In this document: positions 335 through 4,721 of the stretch, piece by piece
How positions within the stretch are numbered: position 1 is the stretch's first letter
How the letters are laid out: the number at the start of each line of letters is the position of its first letter
Source: an uncultured delta proteobacterium
Lineage (GTDB): Bacteria; RBG-13-61-14; DRUE01
Length of the DNA: 8,996 nucleotides
Assembly: GCA_903930515.1 (NCBI GenBank)
Contig: CAIYYW010000037.1
Coordinates: 1 to 8,996 of the forward strand
Direction of reading: 5' to 3'
Notes under the pieces: model-generated
The model's input: the letters and a program-made list of their open reading frames with translations, nothing else
Told to the model about the DNA's origin: nothing
Database searches by the model: none
Made by a program: the position numbers and the translations under genes

Positions 335-1645
335 TTATTTCCAGTTTGCAAAAATCGGATTGGTGTAGAGCAGGGTTGCATTGCTGAGTTCCATCGGCCC
401 ATCCCCGATCAACTGCACCCGGTAATAAGAAGGGATTGCGAGTTTGGCCCCTTCCGTATCGGTGAACTCAAAGTTGGAATTGGTTGCGGTGTAGATGACT
501 TTTCCGTTCCGGATCAGACGCGCTTCCTTGACCGGCAGTTCTTTATTCAGCGAAAACCGGATCACCGCGGGGCCGGACAAATTCACCCATTCCCCCAGCA
601 TCACCTTGTTCGGGACCGCTTTGTCTCCGACGGAAAATTCCTTGACATAACTTTCCTGGAACAACTCTCCCATCAGGGCGACCATCCTTCCGGATTTGAT
701 CGCGTCAAAAACGCCGTTACTGGAATATTCCTTTAGGTAGAACAGGGTGGTTCCGATCCTGAGATTATTGGCGGGATTCTTCGGGTCCGGGCAATGGAAA
801 TCGGTGTCGCCGGTTCCCCAGAGCGGCTCGGCCCTATACCCGGTCAGGTATTCCATCAAAGCCAGGTCCCAGGCCCCGCCCGGACTGCCGGGCCCGAAAA
901 TTCCGTCCGGGATCACGGCCACTCCGGTCAGGCGCGGGAGTTGTGCGGCAAACATATTGGGCGCGTCTGCGCGCGCTTCCGCGACCATATAGTCCACGGG
1001 ATTGATCCAATCCGGATGTGCCTGGAACACCATCCCGCCGTGATCGCGGACATAGTTCACAAAATCGTTATATGGTTTGAAGCCCGGATCCGGCTGGGCC
1101 TTGGTGGTGATGTTTCGGGACAGGGGCATATCTTCAAATACCTTGGGGTCGGTGATTCCATAAACGGTATAATGACGGCTTTCTCCCTTGAGCAACAGCT
1201 TGGGAGAGCGCTCGTTCCAGAAATAAGGCGCGAATTCCATCCCCGGAATCACAATCGGGTTTTGACTTTCATCCGCCAGGGCGGTGATGGTCTTGAAATA
1301 TTTTTCAAAGCCTTCCTTCTTGGAATCCACTCCGCCGGTATCCAGGCAGACCTTATTATTGATGCAAGTCCTGCCCTCGCGATGATCCGTAATGGACAGC
1401 ACCGCGACCCCTTCGTTGCGCGCCTGCTGGATCAGGTCTTCGGGGGTTCGGCAGCCGTCGCTCCAAATGGTGTGATTATGGATGGAACCCCGGGCGATGA
1501 TCCAGCCCTGATCGTTCCAGATCGGAGTGTGTTCCGGCGACGCCTTTTTCTCCGACAGGGGCAGGGGCGTGGACTTGGTCAGCACCGCGCAACCCGTTGC
1601 CATGACCGCGATTAAGACGAAACCCAGAATCGCCGATCTCTTCAT
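335..1645 (-). CDS. PHP-domain metallohydrolase lipoprotein, CehA/McbA-like (paralogue 3 of the array)
   Basis: This 436-residue exported protein starts MKRSAILGF. A longer reading from 1672 is rejected because that ATG overlaps the -10 hexamer, whereas ATG 1645 has GGGAGG at 1654-1659. An N-terminal hydrophobic segment ends in Ala-Thr-Gly-Cys19, a lipobox that predicts lipid anchoring. The PHP fold is complete: His56-x-His58, Asp63, Thr-Asp87-His88, Glu137, His158, His210, and Asp282-x-His284, which together fit a multinuclear metal site. The C-terminal ~120 residues form a beta-rich domain with LIRNGKVIY and a terminal TNPIF. That layout matches the CehA/McbA family, whose named members hydrolyse carbaryl. 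The natural substrate here is unknown, and phosphoester, ester or amide bonds are all possible. Four cysteines outside the lipobox (65, 94, 100, 285) are shared by all three paralogues. It has its own promoter and is closest in sequence to the middle paralogue. Confidence 0.9.
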   Translation of the reverse strand: MKRSAILGFVLIAVMATGCAVLTKSTPLPLSEKKASPEHTPIWNDQGWIIARGSIHNHTIWSDGCRTPEDLIQQARNEGVAVLSITDHREGRTCINNKVCLDTGGVDSKKEGFEKYFKTITALADESQNPIVIPGMEFAPYFWNERSPKLLLKGESRHYTVYGITDPKVFEDMPLSRNITTKAQPDPGFKPYNDFVNYVRDHGGMVFQAHPDWINPVDYMVAEARADAPNMFAAQLPRLTGVAVIPDGIFGPGSPGGAWDLALMEYLTGYRAEPLWGTGDTDFHCPDPKNPANNLRIGTTLFYLKEYSSNGVFDAIKSGRMVALMGELFQESYVKEFSVGDKAVPNKVMLGEWVNLSGPAVIRFSLNKELPVKEARLIRNGKVIYTATNSNFEFTDTEGAKLAIPSYYRVQLIGDGPMELSNATLLYTNPIFANWK

Positions 1646-1720
1646 CGCCCAAACCTCCCAAATTTTTGACATTATACAATGATCCCGATCCGGTTCAAGG
1701 AAAGATGCGCAAATGACCTG
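1646..1720 (-). repeat. Intergenic block duplicated upstream of two PHP genes (copy A)
   Basis: This is the complete spacer between paralogues 2 and 3. It is exactly as long as the spacer at 3032-3106 and aligns to it without gaps; by hand, 60 of 75 bases match. A perfect 29-nt match covers 1684-1712, that is the -35 box and the sequence upstream of it. Differences cluster near the ATG and near the preceding stop codon. The block contains the promoter and RBS listed separately. Confidence 0.85.
1671..1698 (-). promoter_or_regulatory. Sigma70-type promoter of PHP paralogue 3
   Basis: On the minus strand TTGAAC (1693-1698) and a consensus TATAAT (1671-1676) are separated by 16 bp. The expected start of transcription is about 1664, giving a leader of roughly 20 nt that contains GGGAGG 8 nt before ATG 1645. 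The same arrangement recurs before paralogue 2, which supports function. Confidence 0.75.
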
Positions 1721-3031
1721 TTACCTGGTCCAGTCCACAAAAATCGGATTGGTGTAAAGCAGGCTGGCGTTTGCCATCTCCATCGGCCCTTCGCCGATCA
1801 ACTGCACCCGGTAATATGCCGGGATCCCGAGCCTGGCCGCGTCCGCGTCAACATATTCAAAGTTGGAGCCCTGGCCCCGGTAAATAACCTTTCCGTTCCG
1901 GATCAAGCGCACTTCCTTGAGGGTCAGCTCTTGATTAAGGCCGAACCGGATCACGGGCGCTCCGGTAAGCTTCACCCGTTCTCCCAGCATCACCTTGTTC
2001 GGGACCGGTTTGTCTCCGATGGAAAATTCCGAGACATATACTTCCTGGAACACCTCTCCCATCAGGGCGACCATCCTTCCGTTTCTCATCGCGTCATAAA
2101 CCTGGTCTCGGTTTAAATCCTTGAGATAGAACAAGGTGGTTCCGGTCCGGAGAGTCAGGTTGGGGTTTTTAGAGGATGTGCAATGGAAGTCGGCCTCGCC
2201 CCAGGCCCAGAGCGGCTCCGAGCGGTATCCGGACAGGTATTCCATCAAAGCCAGATCCCAGACCCCGCCCGGGACGCCGGCGCTGAAAATTCCTTCCGGA
2301 ATCGGCGCAATCCCGGTCAGGCGCAAAAGTTCGGCCGCCAACATTGTGGGCGCTTCCGAGTGGGCTTCTCCCACGCCATAGTCCGAGGGATTGATCCAGT
2401 TCGGATGGGCCTGGAACACCATCCCGCCGTGATCGCGGACATAGTTTATGAAAGTATTATAAGGCTCGGGACCGGGGTCAAGCTGAACCTTGGTGGTGAT
2501 CCCGCGGGTGACCGGCATCTGTGCGATTACCTTGGGATCCGTGATCCCATAGACCGTGAAATGCCGATTATCCCCCCGGACCAAAATCTTGGGGCTGCGC
2601 TCGTTCCAGATATAGGGCACGACCTCAATCCCGGGGAGGATGATCGGGCTTTGGCTCTGATCCGCGAGATTGGCCAGGGCGCTCATATATTCATCATAGC
2701 CGGAGCCTTTGGAGCCGACTCCGCCGGCATCCGGGCAGAACTTGTCATTGATGCAGACCCCGCCTTGGCGATGGTCCGTGATCGCCAGCACCGCGATCCC
2801 CTCGTTGCGCGCCTGTTGCGCCAAATCCTCGGGGGTGCGGCAGCCGTCGCTGAAATTGGTGTGGTTGTGAACCGACCCGCGCGCGATCACCCATTCTCCG
2901 CTTTTAAAAGTAGGAGTATGGACCGGGGTGTCCCGTTTTTCAGCAAGCGGAGTCGGCTTGCCTTTGCCCAAAGCGTATCCGGCTGAAAGCAAAGCCAAAA
3001 CCAGCAATCCGGCTGGAATTATTTTCTTCAT
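1721..3031 (-). CDS. Secreted PHP-domain metallohydrolase, CehA/McbA-like, lacking a lipobox (paralogue 2)
   Basis: This protein of 436 residues starts at ATG 3031 with GGAGG (3040-3044) 8 nt upstream. The metal-binding set is intact: His55-x-His57, Asp62, Thr-Asp86-His87, Glu136, His157, His209, Asp281-x-His283. The C-terminal beta domain ends TNPIFVDWTR. The signal peptide aligns with paralogue 3 without a gap, but residue 19, the lipobox cysteine there, is Tyr here (TAC instead of TGC). The segment reads SAGYALGK, which fits signal peptidase I cleavage after Ala20. The enzyme is therefore probably released into the periplasm or medium rather than membrane-anchored. Four conserved cysteines remain (64, 93, 99, 284). 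By eye it is about two-thirds identical to paralogue 3 and clearly less similar to paralogue 1. Substrate unknown. Confidence 0.9.
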   Translation of the reverse strand: MKKIIPAGLLVLALLSAGYALGKGKPTPLAEKRDTPVHTPTFKSGEWVIARGSVHNHTNFSDGCRTPEDLAQQARNEGIAVLAITDHRQGGVCINDKFCPDAGGVGSKGSGYDEYMSALANLADQSQSPIILPGIEVVPYIWNERSPKILVRGDNRHFTVYGITDPKVIAQMPVTRGITTKVQLDPGPEPYNTFINYVRDHGGMVFQAHPNWINPSDYGVGEAHSEAPTMLAAELLRLTGIAPIPEGIFSAGVPGGVWDLALMEYLSGYRSEPLWAWGEADFHCTSSKNPNLTLRTGTTLFYLKDLNRDQVYDAMRNGRMVALMGEVFQEVYVSEFSIGDKPVPNKVMLGERVKLTGAPVIRFGLNQELTLKEVRLIRNGKVIYRGQGSNFEYVDADAARLGIPAYYRVQLIGEGPMEMANASLLYTNPIFVDWTR

Positions 3032-3106
3032 TTACAAAACCTCCAAATTTTCTGACATTATCTAATGACCCCGATCCGGTTCAAGGAAAGATGCGCAAGC
3101 CACCCA
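3032..3106 (-). repeat. Intergenic block duplicated upstream of two PHP genes (copy B)
   Basis: This spacer between paralogues 1 and 2 is the counterpart of 1646-1720: same length, gapless, with the perfectly conserved 29-nt core at 3070-3098. Duplication of the spacer together with the gene indicates that the array grew by tandem duplication of a gene-plus-promoter unit. Confidence 0.85.
3057..3084 (-). promoter_or_regulatory. Sigma70-type promoter of PHP paralogue 2
   Basis: TTGAAC (3079-3084) and GATAAT (3057-3062) on the minus strand are 16 bp apart, in the same place as the promoter of paralogue 3. The -10 differs from that copy by one base (G for T at the first position), so this copy may be somewhat weaker. 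The predicted leader is about 20 nt with GGAGG. Confidence 0.7.
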
Positions 3107-4405
3107 TTACCTGGTCCAGTCCACAAAAATAGGGTTGGTGAACAGCCGGGATCGGCCGTCCTCCCCGACCAGTTCCACCCGGTAAAATACCGGCGCCCCT
3201 TTCTTAAAAGCGTCTTCGTCCCGGAATTCCAGTTTGGAGGTTTTAGAAGTGGCAATCACTTTTCCGTTCCGGATCAGCTTGGCCTCCTGAACCGGGATTT
3301 CCTTGTTGAGCGAGAACCGGATATCAACCGGGCCGTTCAACTTGACTTCTTCTCCCAGCATTATTTTTTCCGCCCCCGGCTGGTCGCTGACGGAAAAGTT
3401 GCTGACAAAAATATCCTGAAAATCATTCCCCATCAGCGCTACCATTTTACCGGCGCGCATCGCCTTGAAGACCTCGGCCTTGCTCAAGGATTTAAGATAG
3501 AACAGGGTGGTGCCGGTCCTGAGATTATAGGGGAGGTCCGGGCACTCAAAATCAGAGTCTCCCGTGGCCCAGAGCGGTTTTTCCCGGATTCCGGCCAGGT
3601 ATTGCGCCTGGGCCCGGTCCCATTCGCCGGCCGGCTGTCCCACCTGGTTTAAGCCGCTCGGGATCACGGCCACCCCGGTCAGGTTGAGCAGATTGTCGGT
3701 GAGATGCGTGGGCGCCGCGGCCAGTAGATAAACCAGGTCGTAATACCGCTGATATTCCGTGCTTTCCGGATGAGCCTGAAAAACCAGGCCGCCTTGTCCG
3801 ATCACATAATTGACAAAATCCGCGTAAGGCTTGATCCCGGGATCGGGCTGCGGCTTCATCAGAATCCCCCAGGGGGCAGGCATCTTGGCGTAAAGCTCCG
3901 GGGTATCAATCCCGTAAACCGTGAAATGCCAATGGGTGGCCTTGAGGGTCAGATACGGGAAATAGCCCTCATTCCACATATAGGGCCCGATCTCAAACCC
4001 GGTCAGAACAAGGGGGGATTCCGTCTCGGAGGACAGACGGTTGATCTGCTCAAAATATTTTTCGGTCCCGACCTTTTTGCTGTCAAACCCGCCCATATTG
4101 GCGCAAATTTCATGATGCTTGCCCACGCAGGTTCTGCCCTCGCGATGGTCCGTGATCCCGAGCACCGCAATCCCCTCGTTGCGCGCCTGCTGAATTAAAT
4201 CCTCCGGACTGCGACAGCCGTCTGAAAAGGTGGTATGGTTGTGAACCGACCCTCGGGCAATGACCCAATCACCCATCTGATAAACCGGCGTTGTCTCAGG
4301 CGGGGCTTTACTTTTTGTAAGCAGGATTCGCTCCTGATGAATGTACCCGCATCCCATTGCCAGAACCAAGACGATCATCAGCGCCTGAATTTTCTTGTTG
4401 CCCAT
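3107..4405 (-). CDS. PHP-domain metallohydrolase lipoprotein with altered last metal motif (paralogue 1)
   Basis: The start chosen is ATG 4405 (MGNKKIQAL, 432 residues). AAGGGG lies 8 nt before it and the signal peptide begins there; the upstream in-frame ATG at 4444 would put 13 non-signal residues in front. The hydrophobic core ends Ala-Met-Gly-Cys19, predicting a lipoprotein. PHP ligands present are His55-x-His57, Asp62, Thr-Asp86-His87, Glu138, His160 and His212. The last motif reads Gly-Asp-Ser-Asp285-Phe-Glu287, with Glu where the paralogues have His. This needs two base changes (CAT to GAG), so it is not a simple sequencing error. The C-terminal beta domain ends TNPIFVDWTR. It is the most divergent of the three: the region after His212 is rewritten and the GPMEM/GPMEL segment is missing. 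A weak promoter candidate (TTGCTT-17 bp-TAAACT, 4479-4484 and 4456-4461) lies upstream. Activity may differ from its sisters; substrate unknown. Confidence 0.88.
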   Translation of the reverse strand: MGNKKIQALMIVLVLAMGCGYIHQERILLTKSKAPPETTPVYQMGDWVIARGSVHNHTTFSDGCRSPEDLIQQARNEGIAVLGITDHREGRTCVGKHHEICANMGGFDSKKVGTEKYFEQINRLSSETESPLVLTGFEIGPYMWNEGYFPYLTLKATHWHFTVYGIDTPELYAKMPAPWGILMKPQPDPGIKPYADFVNYVIGQGGLVFQAHPESTEYQRYYDLVYLLAAAPTHLTDNLLNLTGVAVIPSGLNQVGQPAGEWDRAQAQYLAGIREKPLWATGDSDFECPDLPYNLRTGTTLFYLKSLSKAEVFKAMRAGKMVALMGNDFQDIFVSNFSVSDQPGAEKIMLGEEVKLNGPVDIRFSLNKEIPVQEAKLIRNGKVIATSKTSKLEFRDEDAFKKGAPVFYRVELVGEDGRSRLFTNPIFVDWTR

Positions 4406-4520: not shown

Positions 4521-4721
4521 ACAGGGTGTTGAAAAAGTCTTTTTTAAGCAATAAGCGCGAAAAATTGTCTCCTCTCCCTTGATGGGAGAGGAACCAGGAG
4601 AGGGTGATTTGGTCCTTATTTCGCAAGGCTTTGCGGGCTTTGACTATGAGTAAATTTGAGGCGACCCTCTCCCCGACCCTCCCCCCTCCCAGGGGGAGGG
4701 AGGTATTATTCAACACCATGC
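4521..4721. mobile_element. MITE-like element with terminal inverted repeats and TA flanks
   Basis: The left end acagggtgttgaaaaa (4521-4536) and the reverse complement of the right end (4706-4721) match at 13 of 16 positions. TA flanks both sides (4519-4520 and 4722-4723), as for TA-targeting elements of the IS630/Tc1-mariner type. The 201-bp interior has no convincing gene and is rich in hairpins: cctctccc/gggagagg (4571-4578/4584-4591), ccctccccc/gggggaggg (4677-4685/4692-4700), cgcaa/ttgcg (4622-4626/4631-4635), and a long-range pairing 4597-4605 with 4664-4672. No transposase is in the window, so mobilisation would be in trans. It sits in the 354-bp gene-free gap between the esterase and PHP paralogue 1 and may fold in transcripts read from the esterase. 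The remainder of that gap (4406-4520, 4724-4759) holds only the RBS, the weak promoter and the small inverted repeat. Confidence 0.65.

Follow-up and report, generated by a model that had tools for sequence, protein, structure and literature searches.

In a head-to-tail array of three paralogous genes, the second and the third gene each follow a copy of one spacer carrying a predicted sigma-70-type promoter, and we consider, with a probability of about 0.6, that recombination within the tandem array copied this promoter and that purifying selection then held it. The evidence comprises the copied anatomy of the two spacers, the mosaic tail of the second gene and a difference in divergence between the promoter and its flanks. 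The array was found in a stretch of 8,996 nt (hereafter the window) that forms the start of contig C37 in a genome of 3.65 Mb and 401 contigs, and its tandem minus-strand genes stand in the transcription order C, B, A (Table 1). The scores of the three proteins for the PHP domain PF02811 (27.3, 31.3 and 33.8 bits) were all above the gathering cut-off of 26.4 bits, and those for the CehA/McbA metallohydrolase family NF038032 (79.8, 79.2 and 79.7 bits) were borderline, falling just short of the curated 80-bit cut-off. The N-termini of A (MATGC) and C (LAMGC) are lipobox-like, as are those of the paralogues in a congener, and in B the cysteine is replaced (LSAGY; window 2950-3031). Thus, to judge from this motif, B may be secreted instead of lipid-anchored. 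A literature search retrieved no paper on such an array.

Table 1. Positions of the genes, spacers and conserved elements of the array within the window.
Feature	Positions	Strand	Description
Paralogue 1 (C)	3107-4405	minus	ORF, 432 aa; PHP-domain, CehA/McbA-like hydrolase; Pfam PF02811 5.2e-8, NCBIfam NF038032 2.4e-22
Paralogue 2 (B)	1721-3031	minus	ORF, 436 aa; PHP-domain hydrolase; Pfam PF02811 3.2e-7
Paralogue 3 (A)	335-1645	minus	ORF, 436 aa; PHP-domain hydrolase; Pfam PF02811 5.1e-6; ends NWK-stop
Spacer S1 (C to B)	3032-3106	minus	75 nt; 60/75 identical to S2, gapless
Spacer S2 (B to A)	1646-1720	minus	75 nt; 60/75 identical to S1, gapless
29-nt core, copy 1	3070-3098	minus	exact match to 1684-1712
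29-nt core, copy 2	1684-1712	minus	exact match to 3070-3098
Predicted promoter block, copy 1	3053-3098	minus	46 nt; TTGAAC, 16-nt spacing, GATAAT; sigma-70-like, 9/12
Predicted promoter block, copy 2	1667-1712	minus	46 nt; TTGAAC, 16-nt spacing, TATAAT; sigma-70-like, 10/12
Putatively C-derived tail of B	1721-1744	minus	ATTTTTGTGGACTGGACCAGGTAA (IFVDWTR-stop); 24/24 identical to C 3107-3130

The initial annotation of this DNA had described the spacers upstream of B and A as equal in length and free of gaps, with a perfectly conserved 29-nt core, and had added that paralogue 1 lacks the block. All of this was borne out (Table 1): the block is absent upstream of C, where the sequence is unrelated to the promoter spacers of B and A. 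The intergenic region 5' of C (window 4560-4705) contains terminator-like inverted repeats, CTCTCCC/GGGAGAGG and CCCTCCCCC/GGGGGAGGG. The protein identity of about two-thirds given in the same annotation fits the A-B pair (64%) but not B-C (50%) or A-C (53%), and its statement that the noncoding sequence is more conserved than the coding sequence is correct on average (80% vs 71%), although A and B have an exact coding run of 38 nt in common. The exact coding runs common to these two genes measure 38, 28, 25 and 23 nt. The core is thus the second longest run at the locus and not unique, and taken alone it proves nothing special to noncoding DNA. The 38-nt run (NYVRDHGGMVFQA) is located at window positions 1020-1057 and at the corresponding place in B, about 1389 nt farther along, and it could be the product of protein constraint or of a small conversion tract.

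The low synonymous divergence expected if the similarity reflected recent duplication only was not observed: dS between A and B was 0.83 (NG86) or 1.42 (YN00), which means that these duplicates are not recent. At the identity of A-B fourfold sites (65%), about 2e-4 runs of 29 nt or longer would be expected, and the probability of a clean run of at least 29 nt when 15 mismatches are scattered randomly over 75 positions is 0.0035. It is therefore extremely unlikely that duplication alone took place and the core is a chance survivor. Long exact matches do occur at this locus, as the A-B runs of 38 and 28 nt in coding DNA show, but protein constraint acts on those.

Read on the minus strand, the conserved sequence is TTGCGCATCTTTCC-TTGAAC-CGGATCGGGRTCATTRK-ATAAT-GTCA, in which predicted -35 and -10 hexamers precede the start codons with a spacing inside the 15-19 nt range of sigma-70-type promoters. 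In both spacers the -10 box is situated about 25 nt 5' of the start codon, and between the two lies a GGAGG that resembles a Shine-Dalgarno sequence. The block that begins with the core and ends four bases beyond the -10 box is identical at 43 of 46 positions between the copies. When compared with the fourfold sites of A and B (87/134), this gave P = 1e-4, an optimistic value, as the limits of the block were drawn on the same data after the mismatches had been seen. The other 29 bases of the spacer (17/29 identical) have diverged to the same degree as the fourfold sites (P = 0.53). A promoter scan of the 4.8-kb array gave four hits against 3.3 expected, which is the chance level, so that hexamer matches by themselves do not exceed chance; two of the four hits are intergenic, and these are the two block copies. 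We infer that this predicted promoter is active. We had also considered an RNA element but dropped this idea, since no Rfam match was obtained within the window and neither S1 nor S2 folds better than its shuffles; a strong dyad was likewise absent from the spacers.

Two relatives were available for comparison, a congener (G001) and a species from the same order (G002), the whole phylum being represented in the set by three species. The congener has three such genes, g1, g2 and g3, with gaps of 30 nt (g1-g2) and 71 nt (g2-g3), and its g1 (L028:1561-2846, G001 contig C557) is in two reading frames because of either a frameshift or an assembly error. The member of the same order has two genes and no comparable spacer. 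WK-stop endings were found in A (NWK) and in all three genes of the congener (SWK in g1, NWK in g2 and SWK in g3), and VDWTR-stop only in C and B. The 24-nt identity of the ends of C and B, as opposed to WK-stop elsewhere, indicates that the tail of C and the adjoining spacer were put onto the 3' end of B, by either unequal crossover or conversion. Moreover, B matches g3 of the congener over 27 nt through ATTTTTGTG and then agrees with C up to and including the stop codon, the switch from the g3-like to the C-like sequence falling within ATTTTTGTG (1736-1744). Thus, the 3' end of B is a mosaic, of the B/A type up to about 1736-1744 and of the C type beyond.

These features are consistent with homologous recombination that involved the 3' ends of C and of a B/A-type gene; the last codons of C and the entire C-B spacer, promoter included, would thereby have been copied to between B and A. 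If the tails of these two genes underwent one unequal crossover, the product would be C, the spacer, B with the tail of C, the copied spacer and A in this order, and a later conversion of the C tail and spacer onto B would give the same arrangement. The proposal of the initial annotation that the promoter blocks were copied with the genes is thus supported by the gapless, equal spacers and by the derived VDWTR-stop tail, which is restricted to C and B. Its suggestion of local gene conversion can be upheld in a weaker form, as recombination of C's tail and the spacer onto B; a recent patch fits poorly. From the tail to the far end of the core there are 61 nt with five mismatches, and all five fall in a single 8-nt gap between the stop codon and the core (P = 0.0004, assuming an even scatter). 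This clustering, and the fact that the spacer outside the promoter has diverged to the neutral level, speak for an older copy whose promoter is constrained.

The same mismatches bear on the alternative in which the core was made uniform by a short gene-conversion patch of later date between C-tail/S1 and B-tail/S2, which would make selection on the promoter unnecessary. The identical 24-nt tails of B and C beside the identical core are what such a patch would leave, and in the DNA tree B joins g3 of the congener (96/96; P-AU for an A+B clade 0.02). On that topology the C-like tail of B postdates the A/B duplication, and a later exchange is needed. However, a patch accounts poorly for the concentration of all tail-to-core mismatches in one short gap and for a spacer that has otherwise reached neutral divergence, and the protein tree leaves the branching of A, B and g3 unsettled (80/85; P-AU for A+B 0.09). 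We consider this explanation rather unlikely, and we infer that it is selection, not a later conversion patch, that keeps the promoter copies alike. If the DNA tree holds, the A/B duplication would predate the split from the congener and the tail exchange would postdate it. C is the orthologue of g2 of the congener (59% identical; tree support 99/98). We rejected the possibility that g3 is a mosaic of A and B, as the informative sites along the gene cluster weakly.

The identity between the two blocks extends beyond the hexamers, taking in the 14 nt that precede TTGAAC and the first 9 nt of the promoter spacer. These additional identical bases could point to the binding site of a dedicated transcription factor that co-regulates B and A and perhaps other genes. 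We find this very unlikely: the exact core is present in two copies in the 3.65-Mb genome, those in S1 and S2, and a search of the whole genome for further copies with up to three mismatches gave only three 19-mer near-matches (3 mismatches) without promoter context. A wider regulon was accordingly rejected, as the core does not recur upstream of other genes in this genome. In addition, the poor folding of the spacers and their lack of a strong dyad speak against a factor-binding site, as does the congener. Its g2-g3 spacer aligns to S1 and S2 above shuffles, mostly in the ribosome-binding part, but the core and the -35/-10 pair are absent from this matching spacer in the one congener compared. 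Long-term constraint is thus not seen, there is no support for a regulator site of broad conservation, and the promoter copies appear, as far as can be seen, to be specific to this lineage. The shared regulator site proposed in the initial annotation was therefore not confirmed, since the footprint coincides with a sigma-70-type promoter and neither the genome nor the congener's spacer contained a further copy. A special regulator is possible and has no independent support. More narrowly, we regard it as quite unlikely that the core is a lineage-specific site for a regulator overlapping the -35 region, which would tie B and A together and set them apart from C; if this were true, the copying of the spacer would have wired a new gene into an existing circuit.

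An exact 15-nt match to the core (TCTTTCCTTGAACCG) was detected in inverted orientation about 26 nt 3' of the g3 stop codon of the congener, and its alignment score was matched by none of 3000 shuffles. The 15-mer is located inside a long hairpin (z -4.8) that belongs to a family of palindromic repeats dispersed in that genome, for which 24 matches to a 100-nt stretch and 31 to the repeat unit were counted. The family, one member of which is at L029:1135-1234 (G001 contig C369), is built from 7-nt units like CCGTTNA/CCGTGAA; the 31 matches were obtained with this pattern, and its reversed control gave 0. No member of this family was found in the genome of the window at the same threshold. We therefore rejected the 15-mer as a relic of the spacer. 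The match to the core is probably coincidental, as part of it is supplied by the CGGTTCA of the repeat itself.

In the reading that we prefer, copying followed by selection, B and A would each have received a separate copy of a single sigma-70-type promoter, and C would have kept its unrelated upstream region. Afterwards the unneeded parts of the spacer would have reached the neutral level by drift, and the promoter block, from about -50 to +3 and including the core, would have been held by selection for promoter function, with a shared regulator possibly touching the -35 region. If so, the array provides a tidy case of a tandem duplicate born with its own promoter, in which divergence along the copied spacer tells promoter from filler; in a lineage that has hardly any relatives, such a comparison could serve to find promoters by sequence alone.

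The three proteins resemble the CehA/McbA-type PHP metallohydrolases in matching NF038032 (79-80 bits) and the Pfam PHP domain, and they differ in that each lies just under the curated 80-bit cut-off and in that the lipobox cysteine, present in A and C, is absent from B. The array itself appears to be an ordinary tandem duplication that calls for no new mechanism. Nothing clearly distinguishes it from known tandem duplications by unequal crossing-over with the promoter in the unit, although the duplication may be older than the separation from the congener, so that the exchange may have happened more than once. It agrees with them in its head-to-tail unit of about 1386-1389 nt, in the gapless copied spacer with a mosaic 3' end at the junction, and in a first gene that remains outside the copied promoter unit.
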